Source: Fodinisporobacter ferrooxydans (GTDB taxonomy: Bacteria; Bacillota; Bacilli; Tumebacillales; MYW30-H2). Taken from it: a stretch of DNA of 64,000 nucleotides. Numbering within the stretch: the stretch's first letter is position 1; each line of letters begins with the position of its first letter. Under the pieces are notes generated by a model that saw only the letters and a list, made by a program, of their open reading frames with translations, was not told where the DNA came from and did no database searches. Where the stretch lies: contig NZ_CP089291.1 in assembly GCF_022818495.1 (NCBI RefSeq), positions 1,582,501 to 1,646,500 of the forward strand, in the 5' to 3' direction. This document shows positions 3 to 59,907 of the stretch, piece by piece. The position numbers and the translations under genes are program-made.

Positions 3-1283
3 GATTACGACAAAAAATATTCCGGCATGATGGCAGCGATGAAGATCGATCCGAAAACCGGACACATGAACCTTGGCTGGGAATTGCAATTGCCGCCTTG
101 GGACTACGACTTGTCTGACGAAGGAAAAGGTCCTTCGAATGGATGGGCATTTATCACAACGTATAACACGGAAGAAGCGACAACCAATCTGGAAGTCAAT
201 GCATCGCAAAAAGATCGTGACTATACGGTCATGGTGAACTGGAAAGCAGCTGCAAAAGCGGCAGCAGATCCAAAAAACACATATGAACTCAACGGTGCGA
301 AAGTTCTCGATCCGACGAAAGTGCCTGGTCTCATCTATCTGTTGCCAACGCCGAAGTCGCCGCACGGTGTCGACGTATCGCCCGATGGAAAATACATTGT
401 GGCGAGCGGCAAATTATCGCCGACAGTCACTGTGTTCTCTTTCGACAAGATTCAAAAAGCGATCGACAACAAAGATTTTGCCGGAATGGATCATGGCTTG
501 CCGATTTTGAAATTCAACGATATCAAAGAAGCGGAAGTCAATGTGGGTCTTGGACCACTTCATACGCAATTTGACGGCAAAGGCTATGCGTATACAACGC
601 TCTTCATTGACAGTGCAATTGTCAAGTGGAAACTGGGCGATTGGAAAGTCGTCGACAAGATTGGCGTAAACTACGCGCCTGGTCACTCTGCCGCATCTAT
701 GGGCGACTCGGCTGTACCGGATGGCAAATATCTCGTATCACTGAATAAGATCGCCAAAGACGATTTCTTGCCGGTCGGTCCGTCACATCCGGTGGCCATG
801 CAGCTAATCGATATATCCGGTCCGAAGATGAAACTGTTGTATACGGCGCCGATCGATGAGGAACCACACTATGCGCAGATTGCTCCGGCGGATCTTTTCC
901 ATCCGATCAATGTGTATCCGAAAGATACGAGCAATCCGGCTGCCATCTATAATCCGAAGCAGGCGAAAGTCGTCCGCAACGGCAATAAAGTGGAGATTTG
1001 GATGACAGCGATCCGCAGCCACTTTACTCCTGACAACATTCAGGTCAATGAAGGCGATCAGGTAACGATTCACTTGACCAACCTCGACCGCGATGAAAGC
1101 ATTGCACACGGTTTTGCGATTGAAAGTTACGACATAAATGAGATTGTGGAACCTGGTCAAACAAAGACATTTACATTTACTGCCAAAAAGGCCGGTGTCT
1201 ATCCGTTCTACTGTACCAACTTCTGTTCGGCTCTCCACCAGGAAATGCAAGGATATTTGCTGGTGAAACCGAGTCAACAATAA
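3..1283 (+). CDS. nosZ: Nitrous oxide reductase NosZ, C-terminal part (cut by left edge)
   Basis: Reduces N2O to N2 outside the membrane. The reading frame is open from base 3, so the N-terminus lies outside the window. The visible part holds the end of the seven-bladed propeller with His residues typical of the CuZ site (SPHG, PLHTQF, PGHSAA, GPSHP, EEPHY). A C-terminal cupredoxin domain follows, with the CuA motif CTNFCSALHQEM (C-x3-C-x3-H-x2-M; first Cys codon at 1212). The next gene, nosB, is characteristic of clade II (Sec-type) nos clusters, but the signal peptide that would prove this is not visible. Expected electron donor: the lipoprotein cytochrome c at 5538-6011 (inference). The stop is followed by a 211-bp gap with a hairpin, so nosB may be transcribed by read-through or from its own promoter. 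Confidence 0.97.
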   Translation, partial: DYDKKYSGMMAAMKIDPKTGHMNLGWELQLPPWDYDLSDEGKGPSNGWAFITTYNTEEATTNLEVNASQKDRDYTVMVNWKAAAKAAADPKNTYELNGAKVLDPTKVPGLIYLLPTPKSPHGVDVSPDGKYIVASGKLSPTVTVFSFDKIQKAIDNKDFAGMDHGLPILKFNDIKEAEVNVGLGPLHTQFDGKGYAYTTLFIDSAIVKWKLGDWKVVDKIGVNYAPGHSAASMGDSAVPDGKYLVSLNKIAKDDFLPVGPSHPVAMQLIDISGPKMKLLYTAPIDEEPHYAQIAPADLFHPINVYPKDTSNPAAIYNPKQAKVVRNGNKVEIWMTAIRSHFTPDNIQVNEGDQVTIHLTNLDRDESIAHGFAIESYDINEIVEPGQTKTFTFTAKKAGVYPFYCTNFCSALHQEMQGYLLVKPSQQ

Positions 1284-1413
1284 TTCGGACACATAGAATG
1301 AAACTCCGAATTACACGCTGGCAGAGGAATCTTCAAAGTCCGCAAAGTTTAGAAAGTTTGTAAAGTTCGCAAAGGCTAGATTTCTGCAAACAAGAAATTC
1401 ATTTCTAAGTTGA

Positions 1414-1441
1414 AACTGGGTTCCAATAGAGGAACCCAGTT
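1414..1441 (+). terminator. Hairpin after nosZ
   Basis: An 11-bp perfect stem (AACTGGGTTCC / GGAACCCAGTT) with a 6-nt loop. It lacks a run of T, so it may attenuate transcription or protect the nosZ mRNA 3' end rather than terminate fully. A second inverted repeat (AATTCGGA / TCCGAATT) overlaps and follows the nosZ stop. Confidence 0.55.
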
Positions 1442-1494
1442 ATCTACCCATCTGTCGTGAAAGATGAATAAATAACGGAAAAGAGGCGAGCGCC

Positions 1495-2100
1495 ATGTGG
1501 CGTAAAAAGGGGAAAGGAGCGACTGTGATCGAGCGGGCGGGGCTGTTTCTTGGAACGGTACTCATCATAATCAGTACATTTCAGCCTCTCTGGGGAATGA
1601 CTTTGATTGCGCCGCAATATCCGGAAGGCCTTCGAGTGGAGATATTTACAAAAGCCATCAAAGGCAATCTGGATATTATCAATACATTGAACCACTATGT
1701 GGGCATGAAAGATCTCGATAACATGAGTTTTCCGGAATTGAAATACATGACTGCACTCTTGCTTGCATTGGCAGCGTTGTTTTTTCTTTCCGCTGTCATC
1801 GGCAGACTCTGGATGGTTGCGGCCACGATGGGAATTTCTGCAGTTGTCGGGATTGCGGGAGTCTATGATCTGTACCACAAACTTTACAACTATGGCCATA
1901 ATTTGGATCCCCGCGCACCGATTAAACTCAGCGGCGGATTTACACCGCCGGTTATAGGTCAGAATCAATTGGCAAATTTTCATACGTATTCCTATTTTCT
2001 TTCCGGGAGCTATCTGATTATCGCAAGCGGTTTGATCGGGGTGTGGGTATTATGGCAATTGGCAAGAAGATCACGGCGATCTGTACAACCATCATCATAG
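1495..2100 (+). CDS. nosB: NosB-like membrane protein
   Basis: A 201-residue integral membrane protein with about four hydrophobic segments (roughly residues 13-35, 86-104, 108-124 and 172-190) and an extracytoplasmic loop between the first two. I assign it by position: in clade II nos clusters a polytopic protein of unknown function called NosB lies directly after nosZ. No catalytic motif is visible. The ATG is preceded by AAGAGG. Its 3' end overlaps the start of nosD by 49 nt, which implies translational coupling. The family name is inference from context and topology; the membrane nature is seen directly. Confidence 0.65.
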   Translation: MWRKKGKGATVIERAGLFLGTVLIIISTFQPLWGMTLIAPQYPEGLRVEIFTKAIKGNLDIINTLNHYVGMKDLDNMSFPELKYMTALLLALAALFFLSAVIGRLWMVAATMGISAVVGIAGVYDLYHKLYNYGHNLDPRAPIKLSGGFTPPVIGQNQLANFHTYSYFLSGSYLIIASGLIGVWVLWQLARRSRRSVQPSS

Positions 2101-3353
2101 CTCAAGTCTGTACGTTCACATACGGATACAGCCATGCAAAAGAGATTCAAGATCCTGGTGCCACAGCAACGAGCAAGTCCGCGAATCCATTGCAACAATT
2201 GATACAGAATGCCCAATCAGGAGCAACGCTCCTGATTTCGGCTGGAACGTATAAAGGTCCCATTCGTATTGACAAACCGGTGCGTTTGATCGCAAAAGGG
2301 GATGTGACGATTGACGGCGGCGGCCATGGCGACGTGGTGACACTTGCGGTCAACGGGATCGAGTTGCGAGGCTTTACGATTGTTCATAGCGGAAGAGAGT
2401 TGGAAAACGACCAATCGGGGATCAAGCTGCTCTCATCGAACAATGTAATTGCCGGTAATACGATTGAAGATTGTTTGCACGGGATTTATTTGAAAGAGTC
2501 TTCGAACAATCAGATTGTGAATAATCGGATCAAAGGAATTTCTTCCCTTGATATCAATGATCGGGGAAACGGGATTCATTTTTTTCATTCCCCATCGAAT
2601 GAAATTGACGATAACTCGATTTCCTTTACACGGGACGGCATGTACTTTTCTTATTCCAGCCACAATCATGTGATGAGGAATCAAGTCCATGATGTCCGGT
2701 ATGGACTGCATTATATGTATTCCAATGACAATAGATTTGAATGGAATACATTTTCACACAATGTGGGCGGTTCAGCATTGATGTATTCACATGGCATTGT
2801 TTTGAAACATAACACGTTTTCTGAGAATCGGGGACAGAAAGGAACCGGAATCGTTTTCAATACGTGCGATGATTCATTAATAGAAAACAACAAGATCTTC
2901 AATAATTTGCGAGCGTTCTTCATGGACAGCTCCAGCCGCAATACCATTCGAAACAACGATATCGTCAACAATTTCATTGGCATGGAAATACCCTCAAGCT
3001 CTTCTGACAACAAGATTTACGGAAACAACTGGATATCCAATGATGTGCCGGTCATAACGGATCACAACAGCAAATCGAATGAGTGGTACAATTCGGAAAC
3101 CAAAAAAGGGAACTATTGGAGTCATGCGGAATTGCTCGATTTCAATCACGATGGAGTCAGTGACATGCCTTATCATCCGACAACCGTTCAAAGTTATTTG
3201 ATTGGACAGTATCCCGATTTGCGATTTTTAGAAAACAGCCCTGCGATGAAACTATTGGATTTTGCCTATCAGCAGTTTCCGGTTTTTAAAATTCCGAGTC
3301 CGGTTGATCCATATCCTTTAATTGCTCCTTTCGATTGGAGGAACAAAACGTGA
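2052..3353 (+). CDS. nosD: NosD copper-site maturation protein
   Basis: An exported right-handed beta-helix protein of the NosD family, needed with NosFY for copper sulfide centre assembly on NosZ. I prefer ATG 2052, with GGGGTG upstream; an in-frame GTG at 2043 is possible. A signal peptide covers about residues 1-28 (hydrophobic core TAICTTIIIAQVCTF). The rest is a long array of NosD/CASH-type repeats rich in N-x-I-x-x-N turns. The length (433 residues) is normal for NosD. The TGA overlaps the nosF start (GTGA), so nosDFY form a tightly coupled block. Confidence 0.93.
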   Translation: MAIGKKITAICTTIIIAQVCTFTYGYSHAKEIQDPGATATSKSANPLQQLIQNAQSGATLLISAGTYKGPIRIDKPVRLIAKGDVTIDGGGHGDVVTLAVNGIELRGFTIVHSGRELENDQSGIKLLSSNNVIAGNTIEDCLHGIYLKESSNNQIVNNRIKGISSLDINDRGNGIHFFHSPSNEIDDNSISFTRDGMYFSYSSHNHVMRNQVHDVRYGLHYMYSNDNRFEWNTFSHNVGGSALMYSHGIVLKHNTFSENRGQKGTGIVFNTCDDSLIENNKIFNNLRAFFMDSSSRNTIRNNDIVNNFIGMEIPSSSSDNKIYGNNWISNDVPVITDHNSKSNEWYNSETKKGNYWSHAELLDFNHDGVSDMPYHPTTVQSYLIGQYPDLRFLENSPAMKLLDFAYQQFPVFKIPSPVDPYPLIAPFDWRNKT

Positions 3354-4033
3354 AGACAATGATTCATCTGCATGGTGTAACCAAATTCTATAAGAAGAAA
3401 AAAATTGCCGGTCCTCTGGATATGGATGTATTGCAAGGAGAATCGGTGGCTCTTGTTGGCGGCAATGGTGCGGGAAAAAGCACGACATTGCGGGTGATTG
3501 CGGGATTATTGAAGCCAAGTCGCGGTGCTGCAGAAATTGGCGGGCATCCGGCAGGCAGCAAAGAGGCCAAACAAATGCTTTTTTATCTGCCGCAAAAATT
3601 AATGCTTCCCGGCCATCTGACATTGAATGAAGCACTTCGATTCTTTTCGAAGCTCCACAATCGTCCCATAGCGGATATTCAAAATCTGGCGGCCATCTAC
3701 CATTTATCAGATGTAACGGATGACCGAATTGGAACATTTTCCGGTGGAATGATGCAGCGTCTTGGATTGTTAATCGCGGATCATGTGAACACTCCCATTT
3801 TATTATTGGATGAACCGACTTCAAATCTGGATCGGCAAGGGATTGAATTGTTTTTCGAGCAAATGTATGCATGGCGAAAGAATGGACGGACAATTGTGTT
3901 TGCTTCACATGCTGCTGCAGAGATCAATGAGTTGGCAGATCGATGTGTAGTAATGGAAAGCGGCCGCGTGCAAGAAATGTATGCAACCACATCGGCAGTC
4001 TCCAAACGAACGGAGGGGTTCGCACATGCGTGA
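3350..4033 (+). CDS. nosF: NosF ABC-type ATPase
   Basis: Cytoplasmic ATPase of the NosFY transporter that works with NosD in NosZ maturation, probably supplying a sulfur species. Walker A GGNGAGKST, a Q-loop region (YLPQK), signature FSGGMMQR and Walker B LLLDEPT are all present. I chose GTG 3350 because GGAGG sits at 3337-3341 and the codon overlaps the nosD stop; a longer frame from a TTG at 3335 would lose this site. It overlaps nosY by 8 nt. Confidence 0.94.
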   Translation: MKTMIHLHGVTKFYKKKKIAGPLDMDVLQGESVALVGGNGAGKSTTLRVIAGLLKPSRGAAEIGGHPAGSKEAKQMLFYLPQKLMLPGHLTLNEALRFFSKLHNRPIADIQNLAAIYHLSDVTDDRIGTFSGGMMQRLGLLIADHVNTPILLLDEPTSNLDRQGIELFFEQMYAWRKNGRTIVFASHAAAEINELADRCVVMESGRVQEMYATTSAVSKRTEGFAHA

Positions 4034-4847
4034 AATCTGGATGATGGCGAACTATGAATGGAAACTGATTCGTTCGAAACGTTTGCTTTTGCTTTTTGCA
4101 ATTTTTTATGCCGTGCTATGTATTGCCATTGCCTATTTCGGATCGTTTTACGCAGGCTATGGCAGAATTCAAAACTTGCGGACGACTGGAATTTCCCTCA
4201 TGAATTTTTCTCTGCTGTTTCTGCCGTTGATGGCATTGCTATCTGGTGTCACAAGCTTTACGGATCAAAAAGAATCTTGGGAGCTCATTTGTACACAACC
4301 AATCACCATCGGTGAATTGATGATCGGAAAGTTTTTGGGACAATTTTTCGGTATGATTCTGCCGATTTTAGCGGGATTTGTGATGTCGGCAATTGTTATT
4401 GTGTCAAGCGGCACGTTTTATGGTTGGCGAGATTATCTCTTCTTGCTTTTGTTAAATATCGTAACTGCCGCAGTGTTTTTGGCGATCTCATTTGCTGTTG
4501 CCGCACTATGCAAGCGCGGTGCGAAAGTATTTGGCTGGATATTTGCCGTTTGGGCGACCATGGTGCTTTTTTACGATATGTTGGTGATTGGACTTGTTAT
4601 TTTAAGTACGGGATTGAACCAACAAATTTCCTTATGGGCAGCGCTTTTATTCAATCCTGTCGATATGATACGAATTTTGGGTGTTTCACAAATGGGTGTA
4701 TATGATGCCGTCTCGGCAACCGGTACGTTAGTGCAAGAGACTTTGCAAACGAAAGGGCCGGCATTCTTGCTTGTTGCGGTTTTCATCTGGTTTGCCGGTT
4801 GCTTGTTTGCAGCCATTCAATTCACACGCCGTCAGGATTTGGTCTAG
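4026..4847 (+). CDS. nosY: NosY ABC-type permease
   Basis: A 273-residue polytopic membrane protein (about six hydrophobic segments), the permease partner of NosF. ATG 4026 follows GGAGGGG and overlaps the nosF stop, so the upstream in-frame extension to 3981 is unlikely to be used. The N-terminal stretch MREIWMMANYEWK leading into the first membrane helix is typical of ABC-2 type permeases. Together NosDFY give the complete maturation set seen with nosZ. Confidence 0.93.
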   Translation: MREIWMMANYEWKLIRSKRLLLLFAIFYAVLCIAIAYFGSFYAGYGRIQNLRTTGISLMNFSLLFLPLMALLSGVTSFTDQKESWELICTQPITIGELMIGKFLGQFFGMILPILAGFVMSAIVIVSSGTFYGWRDYLFLLLLNIVTAAVFLAISFAVAALCKRGAKVFGWIFAVWATMVLFYDMLVIGLVILSTGLNQQISLWAALLFNPVDMIRILGVSQMGVYDAVSATGTLVQETLQTKGPAFLLVAVFIWFAGCLFAAIQFTRRQDLV

Positions 4848-4874
4848 TGCGGTCATTAGGATCAGTTATGGTTC

Positions 4875-4907
4875 ATGTGATTGATGTGATTGATGTGATT
4901 GATGTGA
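4875..4907 (+). repeat. 9-bp tandem repeat upstream of a lipoprotein start
   Basis: Three perfect copies of ATGTGATTG plus a partial fourth (ATGTGA) lie between the nosY stop and the GGAGG of the next gene. Unit number could change by slippage. It is not in the reading frame I assign to the lipoprotein, so it would alter leader length rather than protein. Confidence 0.9.
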
Positions 4908-4924
4908 AGTGGAGGAATGTAAGA

Positions 4925-5341
4925 ATGCGCCGATTTATAAAACGGTCGTGTCTTGTATCCATAAGTCTGGCGAGCGCATATTTCCTGACAGGTTGCGGGG
5001 ATATTGCTACACAAAGTACCGATCACTATACGATTACATTTCTTAACAGGAACACCGTGCAGCAGGCAAATCAAAAGGCGGATTTTCAATTTCAGATTCA
5101 AGGAAAGGGAAGCATATCTGCTCCTGATTCGGTAGTGCTTGATTTTGACAATGTGGAGATGGATCACGGCAAAAATGAAGTGACAGCAAAGTCGATCGGC
5201 CACGGGAAATATGATGGGGCGACAAAGCTGCCGATGGGCGGAAAATGGGCGGTTACCGTACATATCGGCAAAGAAAGCGCCCAATTTCCTTTTCAGGCGG
5301 AAGGAAACATGGCGAATCCTGCAGGGGGTGATGAAAAGTAA
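4925..5341 (+). CDS. YtkA-like lipoprotein in the nos operon
   Basis: A 138-residue lipoprotein: signal peptide with lipobox LTGC (Cys about residue 22), then one small beta domain. The segment with VEMDHGKNEV, GHGKYDGATKLPMGGKW and VTVHI resembles the YtkA-like/FixH-type fold found in copper-associated exported proteins. ATG 4925 is chosen because GGAGG lies at 4911-4915; the longer frame begins inside nosY. Gram-positive nos clusters often have a NosL copper chaperone here, and this protein may fill that place, but I see no NosL motif. Role in copper delivery is inference. Confidence 0.75.
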   Translation: MRRFIKRSCLVSISLASAYFLTGCGDIATQSTDHYTITFLNRNTVQQANQKADFQFQIQGKGSISAPDSVVLDFDNVEMDHGKNEVTAKSIGHGKYDGATKLPMGGKWAVTVHIGKESAQFPFQAEGNMANPAGGDEK

Positions 5342-5407
5342 TCGTTACAGTTGCACGAGGTAGAAGGTAGAAGGAGATATAACAGTTGGAAGGTTCATTG
5401 AAGAAAT

Positions 5408-5450
5408 TAGTCGTTTTGTACTAGTGTGATTGACTCGTTGTAACTATAGT
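5408..5450 (+). promoter_or_regulatory. Inverted-heptamer site plus -10 before cytochrome c
   Basis: TAGTCGTTTTGTACTA at 5408-5423 (site 1 of the six-member set), with a -10-like TATAGT at 5445-5450. The site centre lies 29.5 bp upstream of the hexamer, which would place it at about -41.5, the usual class II activator position. No good -35 is seen. Confidence 0.6.
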
Positions 5451-5537
5451 ACAGGAAAGTTCCCGGTGTTAGGTTTATTATGCAGGGCAGGACTTAATCT
5501 TTTACCTGATTATTTCATTAGATTTGGAGGTAGCCGT

Positions 5538-6011
5538 ATGAAGAAGAAACTCATCTTTGCTGCAATTGCCACAATGGGCGTATTAGTGCTTGCCGGTTGC
5601 GGCAGTACGTCAAGTTCGCAACAAGCGGATAACTCTTCCCAGTCTTCAAACACGCAAGCCGGTTCGGAGGCTTCTTCGCAAAGCGCCGGCAGTTCCGGTG
5701 GCGCCGCTAAAACAACCAACACAGGCGCAACAGCTTCTGCAGGAGATGCTGCGAAAGGAAAAGCTGTTTTCGATCAAAGTTGCGCCAGCTGCCATTCGAC
5801 GGGGACAGATCAGATCGTTGGACCAGGCCTGAAAGGGATAACGGCACAACCGACCATTGCAGCAAACGGCAAACCGATGAATGATACCAACTTGACTGAA
5901 TGGATCAAAACCGGCGGTACAGGTAAAATCGGCAACATGCCGGGTATGGCGGGAAGTCTTTCGGATCAGCAGATTGCAGATGTTGTGGCATATGTCAAGA
6001 CATTGAAGTAA
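5538..6011 (+). CDS. Lipoprotein cytochrome c (monohaem)
   Basis: A 157-residue membrane-anchored cytochrome c. The signal peptide ends in lipobox LAGC; a Ser/Gln/Ala-rich linker spans about residues 23-68. A class I haem domain follows, with CASCH and a distal Met probably in NMPGMAG. ATG 5538 follows TTGGAGG; the longer in-frame extension has no such site. In Gram-positive respirers such small lipoproteins carry electrons from the bc complex to terminal enzymes, so NosZ, encoded upstream, is the likely partner (inference). It has its own putative promoter at 5408-5450 and a strong terminator after it. Confidence 0.93.
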   Translation: MKKKLIFAAIATMGVLVLAGCGSTSSSQQADNSSQSSNTQAGSEASSQSAGSSGGAAKTTNTGATASAGDAAKGKAVFDQSCASCHSTGTDQIVGPGLKGITAQPTIAANGKPMNDTNLTEWIKTGGTGKIGNMPGMAGSLSDQQIADVVAYVKTLK

Positions 6012-6058
6012 TGGTTTATAAAATGCATTTCATTCCAATGAACATGTTGAAAGCAATG

Positions 6059-6096
6059 CAACACTCACGGTCTCTATGGGATTGTGAGTGTTTTTT
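6059..6096 (+). terminator. Rho-independent terminator after cytochrome c
   Basis: A 9-bp stem AACACTCAC / GTGAGTGTT (6060-6068 and 6084-6092) followed by TTTTT. It closes the nos transcription unit. Confidence 0.88.
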
Positions 6097-6142
6097 AAAG
6101 AGGTGTTTTTGCATTTTCAAGATTGGAGTACAAGATTGGGAG

Positions 6143-6158
6143 TAGTTGAAGTGAACTA
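6143..6158 (+). promoter_or_regulatory. Inverted-heptamer site, distal narK promoter region
   Basis: TAGTTGAAGTGAACTA (site 2 of the set). A weak -10-like TATCTG starts at 6181, 30.5 bp from the site centre. An imperfect hairpin, with CTGC/GCAG in its stem, lies at about 6178-6207. Confidence 0.5.
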
Positions 6159-6257
6159 TCTTAATATAGGAGTTTCGGACTATCTGCGCACTTGCAGCGA
6201 GTAGTCTTCGCTAGGGAAAATGAGAATGGAGAATCAGGAATTTGCGAAAAAAGAGTC

Positions 6258-6300
6258 AGGGAAGTCCCCGAATTACAAAGGGAAACTCCGGATTTAGAAT
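6258..6300 (+). promoter_or_regulatory. GC-rich palindrome and -10, proximal narK promoter
   Basis: AGGGAAGTCCCC (6258-6269) followed by TAGAAT at 6295-6300, 31.5 bp from the palindrome centre. The narG leader has the same arrangement. Nitrate-reductase promoters under NreC in staphylococci carry GC-rich palindromes, so NreC (18754-19410) is the candidate binder (inference). Confidence 0.55.
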
Positions 6301-6346
6301 TGCATTGTGAGGAGCAAATTGAATCACATGGAAAGAAGGGAATACA

Positions 6347-7531
6347 ATGACGAAGCAAAAAGGTGCAACGAGCGTTTTGGTAATCAGCACATTGGCAATG
6401 GTGGTTGCTTTCACCTGTTGGGCAGCGATCTCGCCATTGGCGGTGTTGCTGCAGAAAACGTACCATTTGTCCGCTACACAAAAAAGTATTTTGGTTGCGA
6501 TCCCTGTTTTATTGGGTTCCGTCATGCGGATTCCGCTGGGAATGGCGACAGACCGTTTCGGCGGCAGAAAAGTGTATTCTCTGCTGATGCTGTTCCTCGT
6601 CATTCCGGCGATTGGTCTTGCGAATGCCCATTCGTATATGGCTTATGTCGGTTGGGCGTTCTTGCTTGGCATGGCCGGAACATCCTTTGCGGTCGGGATC
6701 GCTTCCGTCTCAAAATGGTATCCGCCCAATGAACAAGGACTCGTACTTGGAATTACCGGTATGGGGAATATCGGAACGGCCGTTGCAGGGTTCGCTTTGC
6801 CCACAATTGCCAAAACCAGCGGTATCTCTTCCGCATTCTGGGCTTTGGTTGCGCCGGTCGTGATTGCGGCAGTTGCCATCTTCCTGTTTACGAAAGATCC
6901 AGTGGTGTCGAAAAAAGCTCAACCTGCCAGTCAACAATTCGCCGTTATGAAAAACAAAATGGTCTGGGTATTGTCATTATTCTACTTTGTCACATTTGGC
7001 GGTTTCGTTGCATTTGGAAACTACTTGCCGAGTCTGCTTGTCGACGTGTTTAAAATCACACCGATTGATGCAGGCATGCGTGCAGCAGGTTTTGTCGTAT
7101 TGGCAACGCTTGTCCGTCCGATTGGCGGATATTTGGCAGATAAATTTGGAGCCAGCAAGATGCTTTCATTGATCTTTATTCTGTTGTCTGCCTGTGCGCT
7201 CATCCTCAGTGTGGCGTTGTCGAACATTATTGCGATGACGATTGCTTGCCTATTGACGGCGGCTCTTGTCGGAATCGGCAATGGTACGGTATTTAAGCTT
7301 GTACCCCAATATTTCCCGACAACAACGGGGATCGTTACAGGGATTGTCGGAGCTGCCGGAGGAATCGGCGGATTTTTCCCGCCGATTGTCATGGGGATTA
7401 TCAAAGATGCTACAGGCGGCTATGCGTTGGGATTTGTCTTCCTGTTAGTCTTTACATTCTCCTGTTTGCTGGTAAATGGGAAATTGCGCCGGAGTGCTCC
7501 CAACAACATAAAAATGTCCAGCGCTTCTTGA
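6347..7531 (+). CDS. narK: Nitrate/nitrite transporter NarK (MFS)
   Basis: A 394-residue major facilitator protein with about 12 membrane segments. The motif GMGNIGTAVAGF matches the nitrate signature of the NNP (NarK/NasA) family. GMATDRFGGRK is the MFS loop between helices 2 and 3. It imports nitrate and/or exports nitrite for NarGHI. ATG 6347 follows AAGAAGGG. It stands alone between terminators and has two putative promoters (6143-6158 and 6258-6300). Confidence 0.94.
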   Translation: MTKQKGATSVLVISTLAMVVAFTCWAAISPLAVLLQKTYHLSATQKSILVAIPVLLGSVMRIPLGMATDRFGGRKVYSLLMLFLVIPAIGLANAHSYMAYVGWAFLLGMAGTSFAVGIASVSKWYPPNEQGLVLGITGMGNIGTAVAGFALPTIAKTSGISSAFWALVAPVVIAAVAIFLFTKDPVVSKKAQPASQQFAVMKNKMVWVLSLFYFVTFGGFVAFGNYLPSLLVDVFKITPIDAGMRAAGFVVLATLVRPIGGYLADKFGASKMLSLIFILLSACALILSVALSNIIAMTIACLLTAALVGIGNGTVFKLVPQYFPTTTGIVTGIVGAAGGIGGFFPPIVMGIIKDATGGYALGFVFLLVFTFSCLLVNGKLRRSAPNNIKMSSAS

Positions 7532-30885: not shown

Positions 30886-31064
30886 TTGTAACCTTAGATT
30901 GTGTTTGTAACATAATGTTCATAATTGTATCAATACATTCAAGTATTTTATTATATAATGTAAAAATTAAATTACCGATTCTATGACGAACTCAATATTT
31001 GGGTTTTTCTATATTTTCAATGATGGCAAACTCAAGTATAATTATAAATAATGAGGTGAAATAT

Positions 31065-31724
31065 ATGCCGATTCGAGTACTTGTAGTTGATGATCATCAA
31101 TTGTTTCGACGTGGAGTTATAGGCATATTACAGTTGTCGGAGGAGTTTGAAGTTGTTGGCGAAGGAAGCAATGGCGAAGAAGCCGTTGATATGGTGGAGC
31201 GTGTAAAACCTGATGTATTGATCATGGATTTATCCATGCCCGTTATGAATGGGATGGAAGCAATGCGTCAGATTCAGCATATGGAGACAAGTACGCGAGT
31301 TCTTATTTTAACTGTAAATGAAGAAGAAGAAGCATTATTTGAAGCTGTGAAAAATGGAGCACAAGGATATTTGATAAAAACGGTGGAGCCGAATGAGTTA
31401 CTGGCCGCTATTCGCAATGTCGCTGCCGGAGAAGCTGTAATACCTAGCAATCTGGCCGTTAAGATCTTGTCTGAAATCGCCAAACCGAAACCGGTGACTG
31501 TTGAAGCATTGATTGAACCATTGACGCAAAGAGAGCTGGAAGTGTTAAAGGAGCTTGGGAAAGGATTCTCCAATCGGGAAATTGCCAAACATCTTTTTAT
31601 TAGTGAAAATACCGTACGCAACCACGTACGTAATATATTGGATAAATTGCACATGACAAACCGTGTGCAAGCAGCAGCATATGCCGTGCGAGAAGGTCTG
31701 ATCAAAGGGGATGAAACCAGTTGA
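31065..31724 (+). CDS. Second NarL/NreC-type response regulator
   Basis: 219 residues. The receiver has VDDHQLFRRG, LIMDLSMPVMNG with the phospho-acceptor Asp, and Lys in LIKTVEP; the LuxR-type HTH is LTQRELEVLKELGKGFSNREIAKHL. ATG 31065 follows GAGGTG; the frame reaches back to 30999 without a good site. TATAAT at 30954-30959 is a likely -10. Its stop overlaps the kinase start. NarL-family proteins bind paired 7-bp half-sites, and the 7-2-7 sites near this gene make it a prime candidate binder (inference). Confidence 0.92.
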   Translation: MPIRVLVVDDHQLFRRGVIGILQLSEEFEVVGEGSNGEEAVDMVERVKPDVLIMDLSMPVMNGMEAMRQIQHMETSTRVLILTVNEEEEALFEAVKNGAQGYLIKTVEPNELLAAIRNVAAGEAVIPSNLAVKILSEIAKPKPVTVEALIEPLTQRELEVLKELGKGFSNREIAKHLFISENTVRNHVRNILDKLHMTNRVQAAAYAVREGLIKGDETS

Positions 31725-32785
31725 GTAGTCTGCAGGACTTTTTGTCAAAGCCGGAAGGTTCATTGCCAATCTTTGAGTCGCATGTTTTTCGGCATGTTTT
31801 TGAATATGCAGCTGACGGTTATATCATTCTGGACGAACATATGAATGTGTTGTATATGAATCAAACAGCGAAGACGTGGTTTGGCGATTTGTCCATGAAT
31901 CATCCGATACGTTGCAACGATCTGTTGCATTGTCACGATGGACAGGGAAATTCGCTAAAACAATCCGGATGTTATGGACAGTGTGTATTTTTCTCAAAGT
32001 CTTCATTAACCAATATTGAAATGAACGTAAAAAATCTGGCAGGAGAAGAACGGCTTGTTTCTGTTTCCTACTCGTATATTCCATCTCATTCATTAACAGA
32101 ACGCATCATTATGATGTCGATTCGGGATATTACCGATGCCAAGCAATTCGAGGCAGAAAAGAGAAAAGTTGAAAAATTGACATATACGATTCGTGAACGT
32201 GAGCGGTTGGCCAGAGATTTACATGACACGGTTGCACAGGATCTGGCGTTCGCAAATATGAAATTAAAAGTTATCGAACAAGATGCGGCAAAGCTTCAGG
32301 GTGACAAACTTTGTGAATCTATTCACGATGTTTCGGTTGTTTTGGATGATTGCCTTGTGGAGCTTCGACATACGTTGCGGGATTTAAACTTTTCAGGAAG
32401 AGACCTACATGGCTTTGTTCAAAACACTGTACGTACGTTTGAAAAACGTACTGGCATTCAAATAAAATTGTACGTGGAGGGAACATTTGAAGATTTGGAT
32501 GTCATGATTGCCACACAAGTAGCGAGATTGCTACAGGAATCGTTGGCGAATATTCGAAAACATGCGAAAGCAACCATAGCCATCCTTTCATTGATTCGAA
32601 CAAATCATATGTTGAAAGTAATGGTCAGTGATAATGGAATCGGCTTTGACCCGGATTCCATCAATGCAGAACATCATTTTGGATTGCGCTCCATGCGTGA
32701 ACGATGTGCTGCAATGCACGCAAGAGCAGTCTTGGATGCGAAGCCTGGGAAAGGAACGACTTGGACATTTGAATTTGACTTATAG
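31721..32785 (+). CDS. Cysteine-rich PAS histidine kinase (NreB-like paralogue)
   Basis: A 354-residue soluble kinase. The N-terminal PAS contains four Cys in RCNDLLHC ... GCYGQC, spaced C-x5-C-x12-C-x3-C, which differs from the NreB cluster but may also hold a metal or Fe-S group. A HisKA_3 H-box (RDLHDTVAQDLAF) and HATPase motifs (DNGIGFD, FGLRSMRERC) follow. TTG 31721 overlaps the regulator stop (TTGA). It forms a pair with the upstream regulator; the signal is unknown, with oxygen, NO or redox state as candidates. Confidence 0.9.
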   Translation: MSSLQDFLSKPEGSLPIFESHVFRHVFEYAADGYIILDEHMNVLYMNQTAKTWFGDLSMNHPIRCNDLLHCHDGQGNSLKQSGCYGQCVFFSKSSLTNIEMNVKNLAGEERLVSVSYSYIPSHSLTERIIMMSIRDITDAKQFEAEKRKVEKLTYTIRERERLARDLHDTVAQDLAFANMKLKVIEQDAAKLQGDKLCESIHDVSVVLDDCLVELRHTLRDLNFSGRDLHGFVQNTVRTFEKRTGIQIKLYVEGTFEDLDVMIATQVARLLQESLANIRKHAKATIAILSLIRTNHMLKVMVSDNGIGFDPDSINAEHHFGLRSMRERCAAMHARAVLDAKPGKGTTWTFEFDL

Positions 32786-32823
32786 TTTTTCATAGATGAC
32801 CATCAAAGTATAACGTTTTATAC

Positions 32824-32863
32824 AACCGCCTTGTTTAGTCTCATTGGACTATGAAGGGCGGTT
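32824..32863 (+). terminator. Terminator hairpin containing a heptamer site
   Basis: Outer arms AACCGCC / GGCGGTT and inner arms TAGTC / GACTA, followed by ATTTTG. The inner part, TAGTCTCATTGGACTA at 32836-32851, is site 4 of the heptamer set, so it may be an operator, a terminator, or both. A TATTAA at 32877 is only a weak -10 candidate. Confidence 0.6.
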
Positions 32864-33030
32864 ATTTTGTGTGGTGTATTAAATATGTAAACATTCTACA
32901 ATACATCTAGACGATCAAAATAATAGGATAAGAAACCAAATTAAAAATTTAGAGTTGATCTGTTAATTTAAAGTTGATCGGTTAATCTTCTGGCAATCTT
33001 TCAGAATGTTTTCTAGGGTGTGATGAATCG

Positions 33031-33648
33031 ATGCATGTAAAACGCACAAAAGTATTACAAATTTCAAAAAATATCCAACAGATAGAATTTCAAGATATAT
33101 TTCGGACAATCGATCGTAAAATTCTTGAATTCTTGCAAAATTATTCTGCACTCATTGCGTCAATCATGGGGATTGGCTTATGCGCTTGGGGTTTGTTCCG
33201 ACATGACTTAAATTTGGTTATCGAAACCTTGCTTTCAGGTGCAATCGGTTATTACATAGGCTTTTTCCCCGCATTAATCGTAAATCTATTTATATTTTTT
33301 CTCCGAATTCATAGTGCAGGACCTGCATATCAGGTGTTTGATGTAAAGGTATTGCAGTTTTTTGGATGTGCGTATATTGCCTGGTTGGGATTTTGCCATC
33401 GTCAATCGGCGCTTTTCAGCCGTCAGCAATTCTTTCAGGAAGAGCCACATGCCCATCTCATATCTTGGACATTGGTAAACGAGGTGCGAAACTCTTTGAT
33501 GGCGATGCGATTATTATTATTTAAGTACTACAAATCAGAAACGGAACAAAGTGAATTTAAGCTCGTAGAAGATGAACTGTTGCGACTGGAGTTAATTTTC
33601 GGTTCTTTGTCAAAAAGTCATCCTCGCCAAAAACCGCCAAAACACTAG
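33031..33648 (+). CDS. Membrane protein with DHp-like domain lacking the phospho-His
   Basis: 205 residues. Two hydrophobic stretches (about residues 40-58 and 67-93) form a membrane hairpin region. The C-terminal third, with WTLVNEVRNSLMAMRLLL and later VEDELLRLELIF, resembles the helical dimerisation domain of histidine kinases around the H-E-x-R-N box, but Asn stands where the His is expected, and no ATPase domain follows. It may be a pseudokinase-like partner or scaffold, or an unrelated helical protein. It lies between the two-component pair and the oxidase genes. Confidence 0.6.
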   Translation: MHVKRTKVLQISKNIQQIEFQDIFRTIDRKILEFLQNYSALIASIMGIGLCAWGLFRHDLNLVIETLLSGAIGYYIGFFPALIVNLFIFFLRIHSAGPAYQVFDVKVLQFFGCAYIAWLGFCHRQSALFSRQQFFQEEPHAHLISWTLVNEVRNSLMAMRLLLFKYYKSETEQSEFKLVEDELLRLELIFGSLSKSHPRQKPPKH

Positions 33649-33663
33649 TGTTTACCAGCCGAA

Positions 33664-33707
33664 TAGTCCATTTGTACTAGAGTGTAACAATGCTAACGGA
33701 CTATAAG
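33664..33707 (+). promoter_or_regulatory. Inverted-heptamer site and -10 before the ba3 oxidase operon
   Basis: TAGTCCATTTGTACTA at 33664-33679 (site 5) with TATAAG at 33702-33707, 30.5 bp from the site centre. The local layout, including TACTAG after the N4-TG core, closely resembles site 1 before cytochrome c. Confidence 0.6.
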
Positions 33708-33817
33708 GGATAGGTAGATTTTCATATTGTTGGCAGATCCTGCTTATGTTAAAAAAAAGTTAGCATTCTTATTTAAACAGATATCATCAAAGAATTTTTA
33801 AGAAAGGGGAGTCTGAC

Positions 33818-34000
33818 ATGGCAGACCTGTCGCCAACACCGGGAAAGGGGAGCACTTTGCCAAATGCGCCAACCACACAGGAAGAACATCCACATGACAA
33901 ATATTCTCTAAAAGGGACATTTGCTTGTGTATTGTTGCTGGCTGCTTTGATTGTTGCGAGTTGGTATGCGGTCTTTGCGTTATTTTTGAGTAGGCAGTAG
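33818..34000 (+). CDS. ba3-type oxidase small subunit IIa
   Basis: 60 residues: a polar N-terminus and one membrane helix (KGTFACVLLLAALIVASWYAVFALF). The pattern K-G-T-F-A-x-V-L-L-L is typical of subunit IIa of ba3 oxidases. It is followed by subunits II and I. The ATG has AAAGGGGAG upstream. Confidence 0.85.
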   Translation: MADLSPTPGKGSTLPNAPTTQEEHPHDKYSLKGTFACVLLLAALIVASWYAVFALFLSRQ

Positions 34001-34044
34001 GCATTTACCAGGTGAGCAGTAGGATAGGAGAAGGTGATAATCGT

Positions 34045-34524
34045 ATGTACATGCCTCGTTCTGAGAAGGTTTGGATCACCATTGGAGGCGTGGTTTTAGC
34101 AGCTTTTTTTGCTACGGTTGCTATAGACGCATTTGTAATGGGTGCAACTCCACCGTCTGATCCAAAAATGATTGATCCGGCAAAAGTAAGTACAACACCG
34201 CCATTTGACAAACCAGGCTTGGTTCAAGTCGGACCGAAAGAATATGATGCCAATATGACTGCATTCACCTTTGGTTTCGGTCCAAATGTGTTAAATGTTC
34301 CGGTAGGCGCTAAAGTGAACTTTCATGTCACCAGCAAAGATGTGGTACATGGATTTGAAATTCCTGGTACTGATGTAAACATGATGATTGATCCGGGATT
34401 TGTGAATAGCGCATCACATACGTTTGATAAGCCGGGAAAATACTTAATCTTGTGCAATGAATATTGTGGTGCGGGACACCAGTTGATGATGGCTACTATC
34501 ATTGTAGGTGGTGATGCGAAGTGA
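34045..34524 (+). CDS. ba3-type cytochrome oxidase subunit II (CuA)
   Basis: 159 residues with one N-terminal membrane anchor and a cupredoxin domain. CuA ligands are in CNEYCGAGHQLM (C-x3-C-x3-H-x2-M) plus the upstream His of VVHGFEIPG. A single anchor helix fits the ba3 family rather than the two-helix aa3 type. ATG 34045 follows GAGAAGGTGA. It overlaps subunit I by 4 nt. Confidence 0.93.
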   Translation: MYMPRSEKVWITIGGVVLAAFFATVAIDAFVMGATPPSDPKMIDPAKVSTTPPFDKPGLVQVGPKEYDANMTAFTFGFGPNVLNVPVGAKVNFHVTSKDVVHGFEIPGTDVNMMIDPGFVNSASHTFDKPGKYLILCNEYCGAGHQLMMATIIVGGDAK

Positions 34525-36182
34525 TGACGCAAGACAATTCGATACTGGCGCGTTTTGATAAAAAGGATGCATCCCTGAGTCTGGCATATGTTGTAATTGC
34601 TTTTTTAGCGATATTCATTGGTGCTATTGCAGGTCTTCTGCAAGGACTTGACCGTGGTCATTTGATTACACTTCCAAGCACCTTATATTATGAGATTTTA
34701 ACTGCACATGGCGTGATGATGGGAGTTATTTTTACGACCTTTTTTATCATTGGATTCCTGTTTGCAGGTACAGCCCGCACTGTTGGGGGACTTACCAACC
34801 TTTCCAGATCACTGGGTTGGATTGGCTACTGGATGATGGTGATTGGCACAGCTCTTGGAACGGCTGAGATTTTAGCTGGGAATGCTTCTGTACTTTATAC
34901 GTTTTATGCACCTTTAAAAGCTTCCCCCTTTTTTTATATCGCATTGACTTTGATTGTTGTGGGGAGCTGGCTTGGTGGATACGGAATATTTGCAAGTTTC
35001 GTCAATTGGCGCCGCAATCATAAAGGACAGACAACACCCCTGTTTGCTTATATGGCAACTGCAACCATGGCATTATGGCAAATTGCCACACTTGGTGTTG
35101 CGGCTGAAGTTCTCTTTCAATTGATTCCATGGTCATTTGGGTGGGTTCCGACGATTGATGTACTGCTCAGTCGTACATTATTCTGGTTTTTTGGGCATCC
35201 TCTGGTATATTTCTGGCTCTTGCCGGCATATGCTTGTTGGTATGTAAACATTCCGAAGATTATTGGCACCAAACTTTTTAGCAATGCATTGCCGCGTGTG
35301 ACTTTTATGTTGTTCTTGTTATTGTCTACGCCGGTCGGATTCCACCATCAATTGCTTGAGCCAGGAATCCCGCCGAGTTGGAAGGCGTTGCATGTTGCAT
35401 TGACAATGGGTGTTGTTATTCCTTCTTTGATGACCGCATTCGCCTTGTTTGCAACATTTGAGATCCGCGGCCGTGAACGCGGCGCCAAGAGTCTCTTTGG
35501 ATGGTTTTCCTCACTGCCATATAGTGATGTTCGTTTTTTTGGACCATTCATGGGCATGTTAATGTTTATTCCGGCAGGTATTGGCGGTATTATCAATGCC
35601 AGTTTTCAATTGGATGAAGTCGTTCATAATACGTTATGGGTTACTGGACATTTCCATATTACTGTAGGGGCAGCCGTTGCATTAACTTTCTTTGGGACGG
35701 CGTATTGGCTGATTCCTGCTCTTAATGGGCGTGTCTTAACACCGCGCATGAATAAAATGGGCTTGCTGCAAGTGTTCTTATGGGTTGTCGGCATGACTTT
35801 CATGTCAGTCTCCATGCATACATTAGGATTGTTGGGAGAACCGCGCCGTACAGCGTTTACGAATTATTTGAACAGTCCTGTCGTGCAAGAATGGGCAGGA
35901 ATGCGTTTGACATTGGCAATTGGCGGGATCATCCTTTTCATATCTGCCATGATTTTGACCGCTAATATTGTGAATCTCCTGTTTTTTGCTCCCAAAGGCG
36001 AAACTGAGTTTCCGGTCGCAGAAGAAGCTGCTGCAACACCTGAGAGCGTTCCACCGATTTTGGAGCGCTGGGGAGTCTGGTTGTCAATCGCGGTTGTATT
36101 GGTTTTGATTGCGTATACTATGCCTGTTTACGATCAAATCCAACTCCATCCACCAGGATCGAAAGGTTTTGTTACCTGGTAA
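34521..36182 (+). CDS. ba3-type cytochrome oxidase subunit I
   Basis: A 553-residue haem-copper oxidase, about 13 membrane helices. The CuB/Tyr region reads GHPLVYFWLLPAY and the haem ligands sit in VTGHFHITVG; an early His in TAHGVMMG ligates the low-spin haem. The B-family form (ba3) fits the IIa and II partners and suggests high oxygen affinity. GTG 34521 or ATG 34524 may be the start. No subunit III or assembly gene follows; the unit ends at terminators. Confidence 0.94.
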   Translation: MMTQDNSILARFDKKDASLSLAYVVIAFLAIFIGAIAGLLQGLDRGHLITLPSTLYYEILTAHGVMMGVIFTTFFIIGFLFAGTARTVGGLTNLSRSLGWIGYWMMVIGTALGTAEILAGNASVLYTFYAPLKASPFFYIALTLIVVGSWLGGYGIFASFVNWRRNHKGQTTPLFAYMATATMALWQIATLGVAAEVLFQLIPWSFGWVPTIDVLLSRTLFWFFGHPLVYFWLLPAYACWYVNIPKIIGTKLFSNALPRVTFMLFLLLSTPVGFHHQLLEPGIPPSWKALHVALTMGVVIPSLMTAFALFATFEIRGRERGAKSLFGWFSSLPYSDVRFFGPFMGMLMFIPAGIGGIINASFQLDEVVHNTLWVTGHFHITVGAAVALTFFGTAYWLIPALNGRVLTPRMNKMGLLQVFLWVVGMTFMSVSMHTLGLLGEPRRTAFTNYLNSPVVQEWAGMRLTLAIGGIILFISAMILTANIVNLLFFAPKGETEFPVAEEAAATPESVPPILERWGVWLSIAVVLVLIAYTMPVYDQIQLHPPGSKGFVTW

Positions 36183-55222: not shown

Positions 55223-55335
55223 AAAAGTGTTCCGATATACGTAAAAATGCGCGGACGATATTTCAGAAAGTACAGTAAACCAAAAACTTAACTGCATGAC
55301 AATTTGCTGCATGACAATGGGCGACCAAAAACAAA

Positions 55336-55378
55336 AAGCACCTCAAGCTGATTTTCATCCAAATCGTTTGAGGTGCTT
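55336..55378. terminator. Bidirectional terminator
   Basis: AAGCACCTCAA / TTGAGGTGCTT between convergent genes, with T-rich DNA on both exits. Confidence 0.88.
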
Positions 55379-55409: not shown

Positions 55410-56306
55410 TTACTTGACGGTTACATCACCCATCATGTAGTCGTTATGCGACATGGCCCATTCCTGGTTTTCGCCATCGCATTTCAATGTGCAATTCCAC
55501 TGGAATTTGCCGGATTTTTGCGGCGTGAATGTTACTTTCGTAATGCTTGGTTCGCCTTTTTTCGTACTGCCGCTGATTTGTGCGTTCACATTCAGGCCAG
55601 GTGCCGTAAATGTATGTTTGCCGTCATCAAAGTTGAAAATCGTCAATTCGACAGGTTCTCCGCTATTGACTGTAAAATTGCCGGGCGTGAATGCGTCATG
55701 CAGCTTTCCGTCAGGGCCGAGCTTGTAACCTGCATTGATGACCATGGATACATGCTGCACTTTTTGATCGGTCACAGTGATTTTCCCTTGCATGTAGCCT
55801 TGGTGTGCCATCGCCCACTGGTTATTCTCACCATCGCACGGGTCTTTGCAAATCCAGTTAAATGTTCCTGTTTTGGTCGGTGTAAACGTTACTGTCGTTA
55901 CACCAGGCTCACCCTTTTTCTTGCTTCCTTGCACTTTAACATCCAGATTCAAATCGCTTGCAGTCAATGTATGTGTACCGTCATCGTAGTTGTAAATCGT
56001 AAGTTTGACCGGCTGGCCGACTGTAACCGTAAAATCGCCGTTGATAAAAGCGTCGTGCAGCTTTCCGTCCGGTCCGAGCTTCATGCCTGGTTCCACCACA
56101 AGATTTACGTTTTGCGGCTGTTGCGCTGCCGTATTGGTGTCAGTGGCGGAAGCTGTCGAATCTTGTTTCGTTTGTGCTGTTGTCTGCTGAGCCGCAGATT
56201 TGGCAGATTGATCGGCAGATGCGGGTGCCGCAGTATTTTGTCCGCAACCTGCAAGTGTTATGGAAGCGACCGTTGCAAAGGCAATTGCTGTCAGCCATTT
56301 TTTCAT
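55410..56306 (-). CDS. Tandem cupredoxin lipoprotein with unusual Cu-like motif
   Basis: A 298-residue lipoprotein: lipobox LAGC, an Ala/Gln/Ser/Thr linker to about residue 70, then two homologous domains of about 110 residues. Each has GPDGKLHDAF, a His after the Y/FDDG turn (THTLTA, KHTFTA) and the late motif C-x3-C-x10-H-x3-M (CKDPC ... AHQGYM; CTLKC ... SHNDYM). This resembles a CuA-type loop with six extra residues before the His. Likely an extracellular copper or electron carrier. ATG 56306 has GGGGGAT upstream. Confidence 0.85.
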   Translation of the reverse strand: MKKWLTAIAFATVASITLAGCGQNTAAPASADQSAKSAAQQTTAQTKQDSTASATDTNTAAQQPQNVNLVVEPGMKLGPDGKLHDAFINGDFTVTVGQPVKLTIYNYDDGTHTLTASDLNLDVKVQGSKKKGEPGVTTVTFTPTKTGTFNWICKDPCDGENNQWAMAHQGYMQGKITVTDQKVQHVSMVINAGYKLGPDGKLHDAFTPGNFTVNSGEPVELTIFNFDDGKHTFTAPGLNVNAQISGSTKKGEPSITKVTFTPQKSGKFQWNCTLKCDGENQEWAMSHNDYMMGDVTVK

Positions 56307-56517
56307 ACATTCCATCCCCCTAAGTACTCTTCGAATTGAGCATGCAGACATGATGGCAAGAGATCATTTGCAATATGGATGTATGCTCAAAAGCAAGATG
56401 TTCGCAATAAATTGGTTACGAGTTTGATTATAGGAGGATGGAAAGATTTGCACATGTTCAGATATAACTAATTTTTTTAGACAAAAAAGACTAGTACATA
56501 TGAAGCATTGCAAAATT

Positions 56518-57714: not shown

Positions 57715-57810
57715 TAAAATTTCAAGGATTCTTTGGTTTACGGATACAATCAATCTTCGTTATATTGGTTAAAAAGGATTGATTTTGGTTTATATGGGTG
57801 ATGATCAGTG

Positions 57811-59907
57811 ATGAAAAGTCATGAACGAAAAACACTTGCTTTGGTTACCGGCACGAAAATGACGCTGCGAGCGCTTTCGCAGCAATTGACCGATATTTTT
57901 TGCGACTCCGATTCGATTGAAATTCATGAATATGCGTTGGACGAATGGATAGGCGACAAGTTGTTCATCACGGCAGACCTGCTGTTGCTATCGACGGAAC
58001 ATTTGCTGGAACAAGCAACCCCTTATCTGGATCCGGCTTGTCCGTTGCTGATAGCAAAACGTGTCACCAATTACCATCATATCGACCAGCTTTTGATGTT
58101 GGAAGAAGGGACGAAAGTATTGCTTGTTAATGACCACAAGGAAACGGCGCTGGAATCGATCGAGTCACTCATGACTCTTGGAGTGGATCATCTTCAATAT
58201 ATTCCGTATTTTCCGCAAGACGACAAGGGACAGGGAATGGAGGATATCGAGGTCGCTGTCACGCCTGGAGAAGTTGTGCTGGTGCCAAAGGGAATTCGGC
58301 AAATCATCGATATCGGGCCCAGATTGCTGGATGTCATTACCATTATGGAAATTTTGACGAGATTTGGGCTGCTGGAAACGCCCAACCGGTTTCTTTCGGA
58401 ACGATATATGAAAAAAATTATTGAACTTGGCAAAGAGATGGCAGATGCAACAAAACGGGTCACGATGCTAAACAGGCATGTACAACAAGTATTGGACGGG
58501 GTAAATGAAGGGATTCTCGCTGTAAACCAACAGGGGAAAATTACGATCTTTAATGAAATTCTTGAACAAATATCCCGCGTACCTGCACTTAGGGCCATCG
58601 GGAAGCCGCTACACCAAGTGATAACGATTCCCGAACTGATTCAATTTTTGACGGATTTGCCTGACGAAGAAACTCGTTTGTTTCAAGTGGAGGGCAAATC
58701 GGTCGTCGTTACACGGCTGCCCCAGGAAGATGGATTTATTGCAACATTCCAGAATTTGAAAGACATTTCCAAAAGCGAACAACAGTGGCGAAAAACCATG
58801 TTGAATAAAGGGTATATAGCAAAACACACATTTCACCATATTGTCGGGAAAAGTGACGCGATTCAAAACGTCAAACAAATCGCAAAAAAGTTGGCGCGGA
58901 CAGACCTTACCGTACTGATCGAAGGGGAAAGCGGAACAGGGAAAGAGCTGTTCGCAAGTGCGATTCATAACGAATCAGAACGAAAAAAATGTCCTTTTCT
59001 GGCGGTGAATTTTAGTGCTTTATCAGAGGATCTTGTGGAAAGCGAACTGTTTGGTTACGAAGAAGGAGCGTTTACCGGAGCAAAAAAAGGCGGGAAGGCA
59101 GGGCTTTTCGAATTGGCGGAGGGTGGAACGATTTTTCTTGATGAAATAGGGGATATCTCTGTAAAAATCCAGGCGCGTTTGTTGCGCGTGCTGCAAGAGA
59201 AAGAAGTCATGCGAGTGGGAGGAAACAAAATCACGCCGGTCGATGTTCGTGTCATCGCTGCCACCAACAAAAATCTGTTGGCGATGATACAAGAAGGACG
59301 ATTTCGAGAAGATTTGTATCATCGTTTAAAAGTGTTGTCGCTAAAGTTGCCGCCATTGCGCATGCGAACTTCGGATATACCGATTCTTGCAAGTCATTTT
59401 CTGCGACAAAGCTCGATTCGAAACATTGCAATCACACCAGAGGTGATGGGAAAATTATGTGAATGTTCATGGTTTGGAAATGTCAGGGAGTTGAAGAATG
59501 CCATCGAGTATATGTTGGCAGTATCGGAAGGGGATGAACTGAGACTAGAGGATCTCCCGGATTCGTTGCATGACTCAAATTCCTTACAGGATCCATTCGA
59601 AATCCAACAGGACGATTTTGCCTCCCTGGATCCCGTTTGGCAAGAATTCGCCCAACTTGGGGACCAGGAGATATATCTCGCGCTTTTGACAGCCATAGAA
59701 ACTTTGAAAAAGCGGGGGTTAAGCGCCGGACGGCGCACGCTTTCGGTGTTTTTGGCTTCCCGGCACTTGCAGCTAAGCGAGCAGCAAATTCGCAATAAAT
59801 TAGATGTACTTGAAAAACATGGGTATATTTTGAAAACAAAAGGACGTTCCGGCGCTTCCATTTCCGCAAAAGGACAAAGGATTCTTTGGCAAAATGGGTT
59901 GAAATAG
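57811..59907 (+). CDS. Sigma-54-dependent activator with winged-helix C-terminus
   Basis: A 698-residue activator. Residues 1-200 form a ligand or PrpR_N-like sensor region that I cannot name surely. A PAS-like domain follows (about 215-330), then AAA+ (Walker A EGESGTGKE, sigma-54 loop GAFTGAKKGG, Walker B GGTIFLDEIGD). The C-terminus is not a Fis helix but a winged-helix-like segment (LSEQQIRNKLDVLEKHGYI then KGRSGASIS). It sits between two sigma-54-type promoters and likely activates both the M20 gene and the ABC transporter. GTG 57808 is an alternative start. Confidence 0.88.
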   Translation: MKSHERKTLALVTGTKMTLRALSQQLTDIFCDSDSIEIHEYALDEWIGDKLFITADLLLLSTEHLLEQATPYLDPACPLLIAKRVTNYHHIDQLLMLEEGTKVLLVNDHKETALESIESLMTLGVDHLQYIPYFPQDDKGQGMEDIEVAVTPGEVVLVPKGIRQIIDIGPRLLDVITIMEILTRFGLLETPNRFLSERYMKKIIELGKEMADATKRVTMLNRHVQQVLDGVNEGILAVNQQGKITIFNEILEQISRVPALRAIGKPLHQVITIPELIQFLTDLPDEETRLFQVEGKSVVVTRLPQEDGFIATFQNLKDISKSEQQWRKTMLNKGYIAKHTFHHIVGKSDAIQNVKQIAKKLARTDLTVLIEGESGTGKELFASAIHNESERKKCPFLAVNFSALSEDLVESELFGYEEGAFTGAKKGGKAGLFELAEGGTIFLDEIGDISVKIQARLLRVLQEKEVMRVGGNKITPVDVRVIAATNKNLLAMIQEGRFREDLYHRLKVLSLKLPPLRMRTSDIPILASHFLRQSSIRNIAITPEVMGKLCECSWFGNVRELKNAIEYMLAVSEGDELRLEDLPDSLHDSNSLQDPFEIQQDDFASLDPVWQEFAQLGDQEIYLALLTAIETLKKRGLSAGRRTLSVFLASRHLQLSEQQIRNKLDVLEKHGYILKTKGRSGASISAKGQRILWQNGLK

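Follow-up and report, generated by a model that had tools for sequence, protein, structure and literature searches.

A tandem CuA-derived cupredoxin lipoprotein of Fodinisporobacter ferrooxydans with a putative His-Cys2-Met2 copper site

What kind of metal site would be formed by two cupredoxin domains that share a cysteine loop of unusual spacing, and what might such a protein do on the outside of a Gram-positive cell? The question is raised by one gene in a 64,000-nucleotide stretch of DNA (the window; contig NZ_CP089291.1, positions 1,582,501 to 1,646,500) from F. ferrooxydans MYW30-H2. The strain description gives an iron oxidiser that grows at pH 3.5-6.0 and has a 4.86 Mb single-contig genome (PMC11123200); the contig analysed here has 4,856,687 bases.

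The gene lies on the minus strand, as do all of its parts. It spans 55410..56306 including the stop codon and encodes 298 amino acids from the ATG of MKKWLTAIAF, based on the ORF list, the Pfam match and the structural model described below. A probable ribosome binding site, AGGGGG (56316..56321), recognised by eye, is located 9 bases 5' of the ATG. Its neighbours are a gene for a peptidase-like protein and one for a metallo-beta-lactamase-fold protein; it stands alone with its own intrinsic terminator (55330..55378; folding energy -29.6 kcal/mol, z -3.66), a hairpin and U run at which transcription probably stops. The product begins with a signal peptide containing the lipobox LAG-C21 (56244..56306), which, by the lipobox rule, predicts a lipid anchor; an NCBIfam scan gave 16 weak matches, all under cut-off, mostly to signal peptides and including lipoprotein types. 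A low-complexity linker of 42 residues rich in Ala, Thr and Gln (residues 22-63; 56118..56243) leads into cupredoxin domain 1 (residues 64-181; 55764..56117) and domain 2 (residues 183-298; 55413..55760), both delimited by Pfam, alignment and the model.

That these are tandem cupredoxin domains had been proposed from the letters alone in an initial annotation, and the searches bear this out. The protein matches PF13473 (Cupredoxin_1) with E 5.6e-12 and 46 bits, above the gathering cut-off of 27, and the AlphaFold2 model (22 sequences) has a mean pLDDT of 96.0 over residues 64-298. Structural alignment with VIA-align places the model close to the CuA domains of NosZ and ba3 oxidase (Z 10.6-11.2): the NosZ domains align at Z about 11 with an rmsd of 1.5-1.6 Å over 92-94 residues and 27-32% identity, and the ba3 domain 2cua at Z 10.7 with an rmsd of 2.6 over 105 residues. 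A sequence profile also reaches NosZ (2iwf, E 0.003), in an alignment that spans both Cys.

The repeated pattern that first drew attention to the gene, C-x3-C-x10-H-x3-M with an upstream His, is present in both domains. In domain 1 the loop C153-x3-C157-x8-M166-x-H168-x3-M172 occupies 55791..55850, and the candidate upstream ligand His112 is encoded at 55971..55973; the equivalent loop of domain 2, C272-x3-C276-x8-M285-x-H287-x3-M291, occupies 55434..55493, and His231, assigned by alignment, lies at 55614..55616. The C-x3-C pair and upstream His that characterise the CuA class are found in both domains. Among 627 six-frame ORFs of at least 50 amino acids in the window there are three matches to the pattern (the two domains and a 72-aa ORF), versus 0.06 per set of shuffled ORFs, which indicates that the motif is not a product of chance. 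The annotation's argument from identical spacing stands to that extent, but the two domains are not two independent observations, as they share 68 of 118 protein columns (58%) and 224 of 354 DNA columns and inherited the spacing by duplication. A single tandem duplication shared by the whole family is doubtful: domains 1 and 2 of four loci (L055, L056, L022, L030) lie near each other in a tree in which some forks are poorly supported. The pattern also passes over a Met in each loop (Met166 and Met285, in WAM) that is conserved more than the His.

When every retrieved locus was searched with a profile, 197 hits came back, representing 67 distinct loop-covering domains once copies and partial matches were removed; partial matches (e.g., L103, L104 and short pieces in L102, L116 and L127) and hits in a distant branch were left out of this figure, since in them the profile aligned with less than the whole domain. 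Main-branch domains had first been gathered by motif pattern, a bias that the profile inherits, and domains were selected as intact by the presence of both Cys (64 of 67). His112, Met166, Met172, His84, Asp158 and Gly174 are invariant in all 64 (domain 1 numbering), and position 168 is His in 49, Gln in 10 and Asn in 5. Cys157 and Met166 are separated by 8 residues in 51 domains, 6 in six, 16 in five and 7 in two; the 16-residue loops (L056, L085-L088) are rich in Gly, Pro, Asn and Lys. The constant pattern across intact domains is C-x3-C-x(6,7,8,16)-M-x5-M plus the upstream His, and the annotation's C-x3-C-x10-H-x3-M gives way to it: neither its His nor its spacing is fixed, while Met166 is. 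The CuA-type loop that the annotation had recognised accordingly holds as kinship with NosZ CuA, supported by profile and structure, and is not supported as a site of the form C-x10-H-x3-M. The M-x-G that follows the loop in the CuA class is also universal here, with Met172 as a candidate ligand.

The second Cys (Cys157) is missing from three domains, all of them first domains (L021, L028, L029); a tree from which the loop was excluded resolves these losses into two events. His112 and Met166 are gone in all three degenerate domains and His84 is kept in all three; His168 and Met172 are each retained in two. On the same tree position 168 changes about ten times, and positions 112 and 166 change twice each, at the site losses. 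His112, Cys157 and Met166 are kept and lost together, with Cys153 and Met172 nearly so, and hence the set behaves as one metal site.

The family is real and well conserved, and its alignments redefine the site: it is a variant of the CuA-type cupredoxin with a putative copper site. Each domain probably binds copper through five residues, one His, the two Cys of C-x3-C and two Met. The first of these Met (Met166) would replace the second His of canonical CuA, and the variable His, Gln or Asn at position 168 may be a second-shell or auxiliary residue. We infer copper binding, and with it any copper number, from the sequence, the fold prediction, conservation, joint loss, distribution and gene neighbours.

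The distribution of the family is patchy and often multi-copy, with four matches in one genome (G288). Ten loci were recovered in a contig scan, of which seven are true two-domain relatives (best-segment identity 47-58%) from Neobacillus, Aneurinibacillus and one Bacillota bin; three (L016, L017, L018) were dropped, their match being confined to the signal-peptide end. Whole-genome searches found the family in 11 of the 398 class genomes and 1 of the 14 order genomes searched, and a phylum search at a loose cut-off, which takes in distant and generic cupredoxins, gave 12 of 398. Searches of the order to which G548 belongs (73 genomes) and of the class to which G621 belongs (82 genomes) each gave four carriers, the two sets being identical apart from rank, and 14 of 41 genomes of one family (f11) have it. 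Plasmids yielded no match to the window gene, and a literature search, conducted mostly outside subscription papers, returned no published description of this cupredoxin family.

In two genomes from different families (G548 and G621) a Rieske gene and a gene for a cytochrome b whose C-terminus carries CxxCH come directly after the two-domain gene in the same orientation, and a divergent two-component pair lies upstream of the cupredoxin (Pfam in L079). The cytochrome b frames fused to the CxxCH domain are at 9852-11246 in L078 and 10492-11850 in L079, in line with the Rieske gene and the tandem cupredoxin. In G783 and G784, the loci of close relatives of these genes retain the two-component pair but have no bc genes, cytochrome b being encoded elsewhere. 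A sigma-54 PAS activator adjoins the cupredoxin in G783 (L089 9658-11685); in the window, a frame two genes away (57808-59907) looks like an AAA regulator and, by look only, resembles that activator. Other respiratory neighbours are a convergent, adjoining cytochrome b gene in G350 and, in G852, genes for cytochrome bd subunit II and two ABC transporter proteins upstream of the cupredoxin (Pfam), an arrangement shared by G853 and G854 as judged from gene order only. A COX2/COX1 operon lies a few genes from the cupredoxin in G169, its COX2 frame lacking C-x3-C-x3-H-x2-M, and Sco-type redoxins are encoded near the cupredoxin gene in G288. Respiratory neighbours are absent from most loci of the family, and no one neighbour recurs throughout; a conserved operon for the window gene was rejected, given its own terminator and the finding, from all-against-all comparison, of no neighbour common to most of 24 loci.

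An electron-carrier role for the window protein is favoured on the strength of the bc genes and the remaining respiratory neighbours; we consider it a serious possibility that stops short of being probable. Single electrons would most likely be shuttled at the outer face of the membrane, between quinol-driven complexes and acceptors.

A less likely alternative is an outer-face Cu(I) chaperone or buffer resembling CupA, in which soft Cys and Met ligands hold Cu(I) and hand it on or render it harmless. The Cys/Met-rich ligand set suits such a protein, the VIA-align matches include CupA (Z 11.1, rmsd 1.7, 86 residues aligned) and the CopA metal-binding domain, and several genomes encode multiple paralogues. 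Frequent two-component neighbours would also suit a copper-response protein: OmpR- or NarL-type response regulators are adjacent in L079, L089, L011 and L051 (Pfam), and in L078, L090 and L050 by gene order only. With respect to soft ligands and two-component neighbours this reading fits nearly as well as electron transfer. Against it, the CupA ligands (C74, C111, M113 and M115; PMC5646241) include no upstream His, a residue found here in 64 of 64 intact domains; no copper exporter gene adjoins the window gene, and bc-complex genes are adjacent in two genomes.

The initial annotation had suggested instead that the protein, as a carrier with two centres, might supply copper to NosZ or the ba3 oxidase, and the window does encode both. 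A Gram-positive nos cluster occupies 27-7531 on the plus strand, with a nosZ C-terminus that has the canonical CuA motif (CTNFCSALHQEM) and genes for NosD, an ABC ATPase, an ABC-2 permease, a YtkA-like protein, cytochrome c and an MFS protein. Genes for a ba3-type oxidase, encoding COX2 (with CNEYCGAGHQLM) and COX1, are at 30999-36182 on the plus strand, with genes for a LuxR-type response regulator and a HisKA_3 kinase ahead of them. The Neobacillus carriers have nosZ as well, and a single-domain relative adjoins nosZ in G261, so that a NosZ link may exist in some species. Neobacillus sp. PS3-12 has a further copy of nosZ (G781:C1:3288711-3290449), which is split into two frames with an internal TGA and is likely a pseudogene. 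However, the window gene is ~54 kb from nosZ and ~21 kb from COX2, and among main-branch carriers tested NosZ was found in 5 of 17 and COX2 (E 1e-6) in 14 of 17, with neither matched in G548 or G621 at the thresholds used. As a role for the family, loading of NosZ or the ba3 oxidase is not supported, and for the window protein itself it is improbable. COX1 was found in all 22 genomes searched, three of which are non-carriers.

The site itself could be read differently, as canonical CuA with an extended loop, His168 and His287 being true ligands. Both domains of the window protein have this His, and it is the commonest residue at the position, yet Gln or Asn replaces it in 15 of 64 domains, and the x10 spacing departs from C-x3-C-x3-H-x2-M, which the NosZ and COX2 of the same window hold exactly. 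The distant branch of the family argues in the same direction. All eight of its aligned domains have the His, two Cys and two Met in the form C-x3-C-x10-M-x5-M, and there is no His at the position of 168; the pattern used to gather them demanded both Cys and the final Met, accepted M, L or A in place of the first Met and left the His free, and the alignment omitted one partial frame in L033. Members include L058, L059, L060, L069, L070, L071 and a gene of the F. ferrooxydans genome itself at 655,136. This gene (G000:C1:655136-655711; L072, L075) encodes a second, single-domain cupredoxin of the His-Cys2-Met2 type, and a frame further on, on the opposite strand, opens like a response regulator by look only. 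The distant-branch model gives a similar VIA-align list (nitrosocyanin, Z 11.5), its loop being less certain (pLDDT 64-75). A canonical centre is improbable, and the two invariant Cys and non-conserved second His likewise differ from the one Cys, two His and Met of type 1 blue copper. Least probable is a metal-free protein in which the C-x3-C pair forms a structural or redox disulfide and conservation reflects folding: a location outside the cell favours disulfides, but a pure disulfide would have no need of His112 and Met166, and these vanished with Cys157 in two separate events that left the rest of the domain in place.

Taken as a whole, the favoured reading is that the gene product is an outward-facing lipoprotein whose two cupredoxin domains derive from CuA, holding copper in His-Cys2-Met2 sites and acting as a single-electron shuttle, a combination that we advance tentatively. 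A bolder version is rather unlikely: that the protein is a natural CuA-type centre with one His changed to Met, high in potential and acid-proof, which acid-living Firmicutes use in tandem, tethered to the membrane, in place of cytochrome c downstream of the bc complex. Its appeal is that Met is not protonated at low pH, so the ligand would not be lost by protonation. The acid link is drawn from the source organism and the presumed habits of a few carriers, with no count behind it; Aneurinibacillus terranovensis is an acid-tolerant species, and the Neobacillus carriers, which are not known to be acidophiles, speak against a strict association. If the five-residue site is correct, nature would have answered a question of protein engineering, that of a CuA scaffold working with His replaced by Met, and acid-living Gram-positive bacteria would gain a candidate electron carrier at their outer face. 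Sequence conservation predicts that Met166 is essential and His168 dispensable.

Several known systems resemble the window protein in part. The best structural match is nitrosocyanin, the red copper protein of Nitrosomonas europaea (Z 13.8, rmsd 2.2, 95 residues), which has one domain, as opposed to two, and ligands that include one Cys and a Glu. The Bacillus anthracis Cupredoxin_1 protein 4hcf (Z 13.2, rmsd 1.5, 88 residues) is the top sequence match among solved structures; it too is a single domain, and its entry title calls the function uncharacterised. CupA, the Cu(I) chaperone of Streptococcus pneumoniae, and the CopA metal-binding domain share the cupredoxin fold, Cys and Met ligands and a membrane anchor, the last predicted here from the lipobox; compared by residue lists, the window family does not have the CupA ligand set and keeps instead an upstream His, C-x3-C and an invariant His-Cys-Cys-Met-Met. 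AcoP of Acidithiobacillus ferrooxidans, set beside the family by description, is likewise a respiratory cupredoxin of an acidophile with an unusual inter-ligand loop length (PMC4059628). It differs from the window protein in having a single green copper site. The CuA domains of NosZ and COX2 share the cupredoxin fold, the upstream His, C-x3-C and a Met-x-Gly that opens the last strand; the window family differs from them in a longer loop of variable length, a non-conserved second His and an additional invariant Met, and the window protein in carrying two such domains on a lipid anchor without a catalytic domain.
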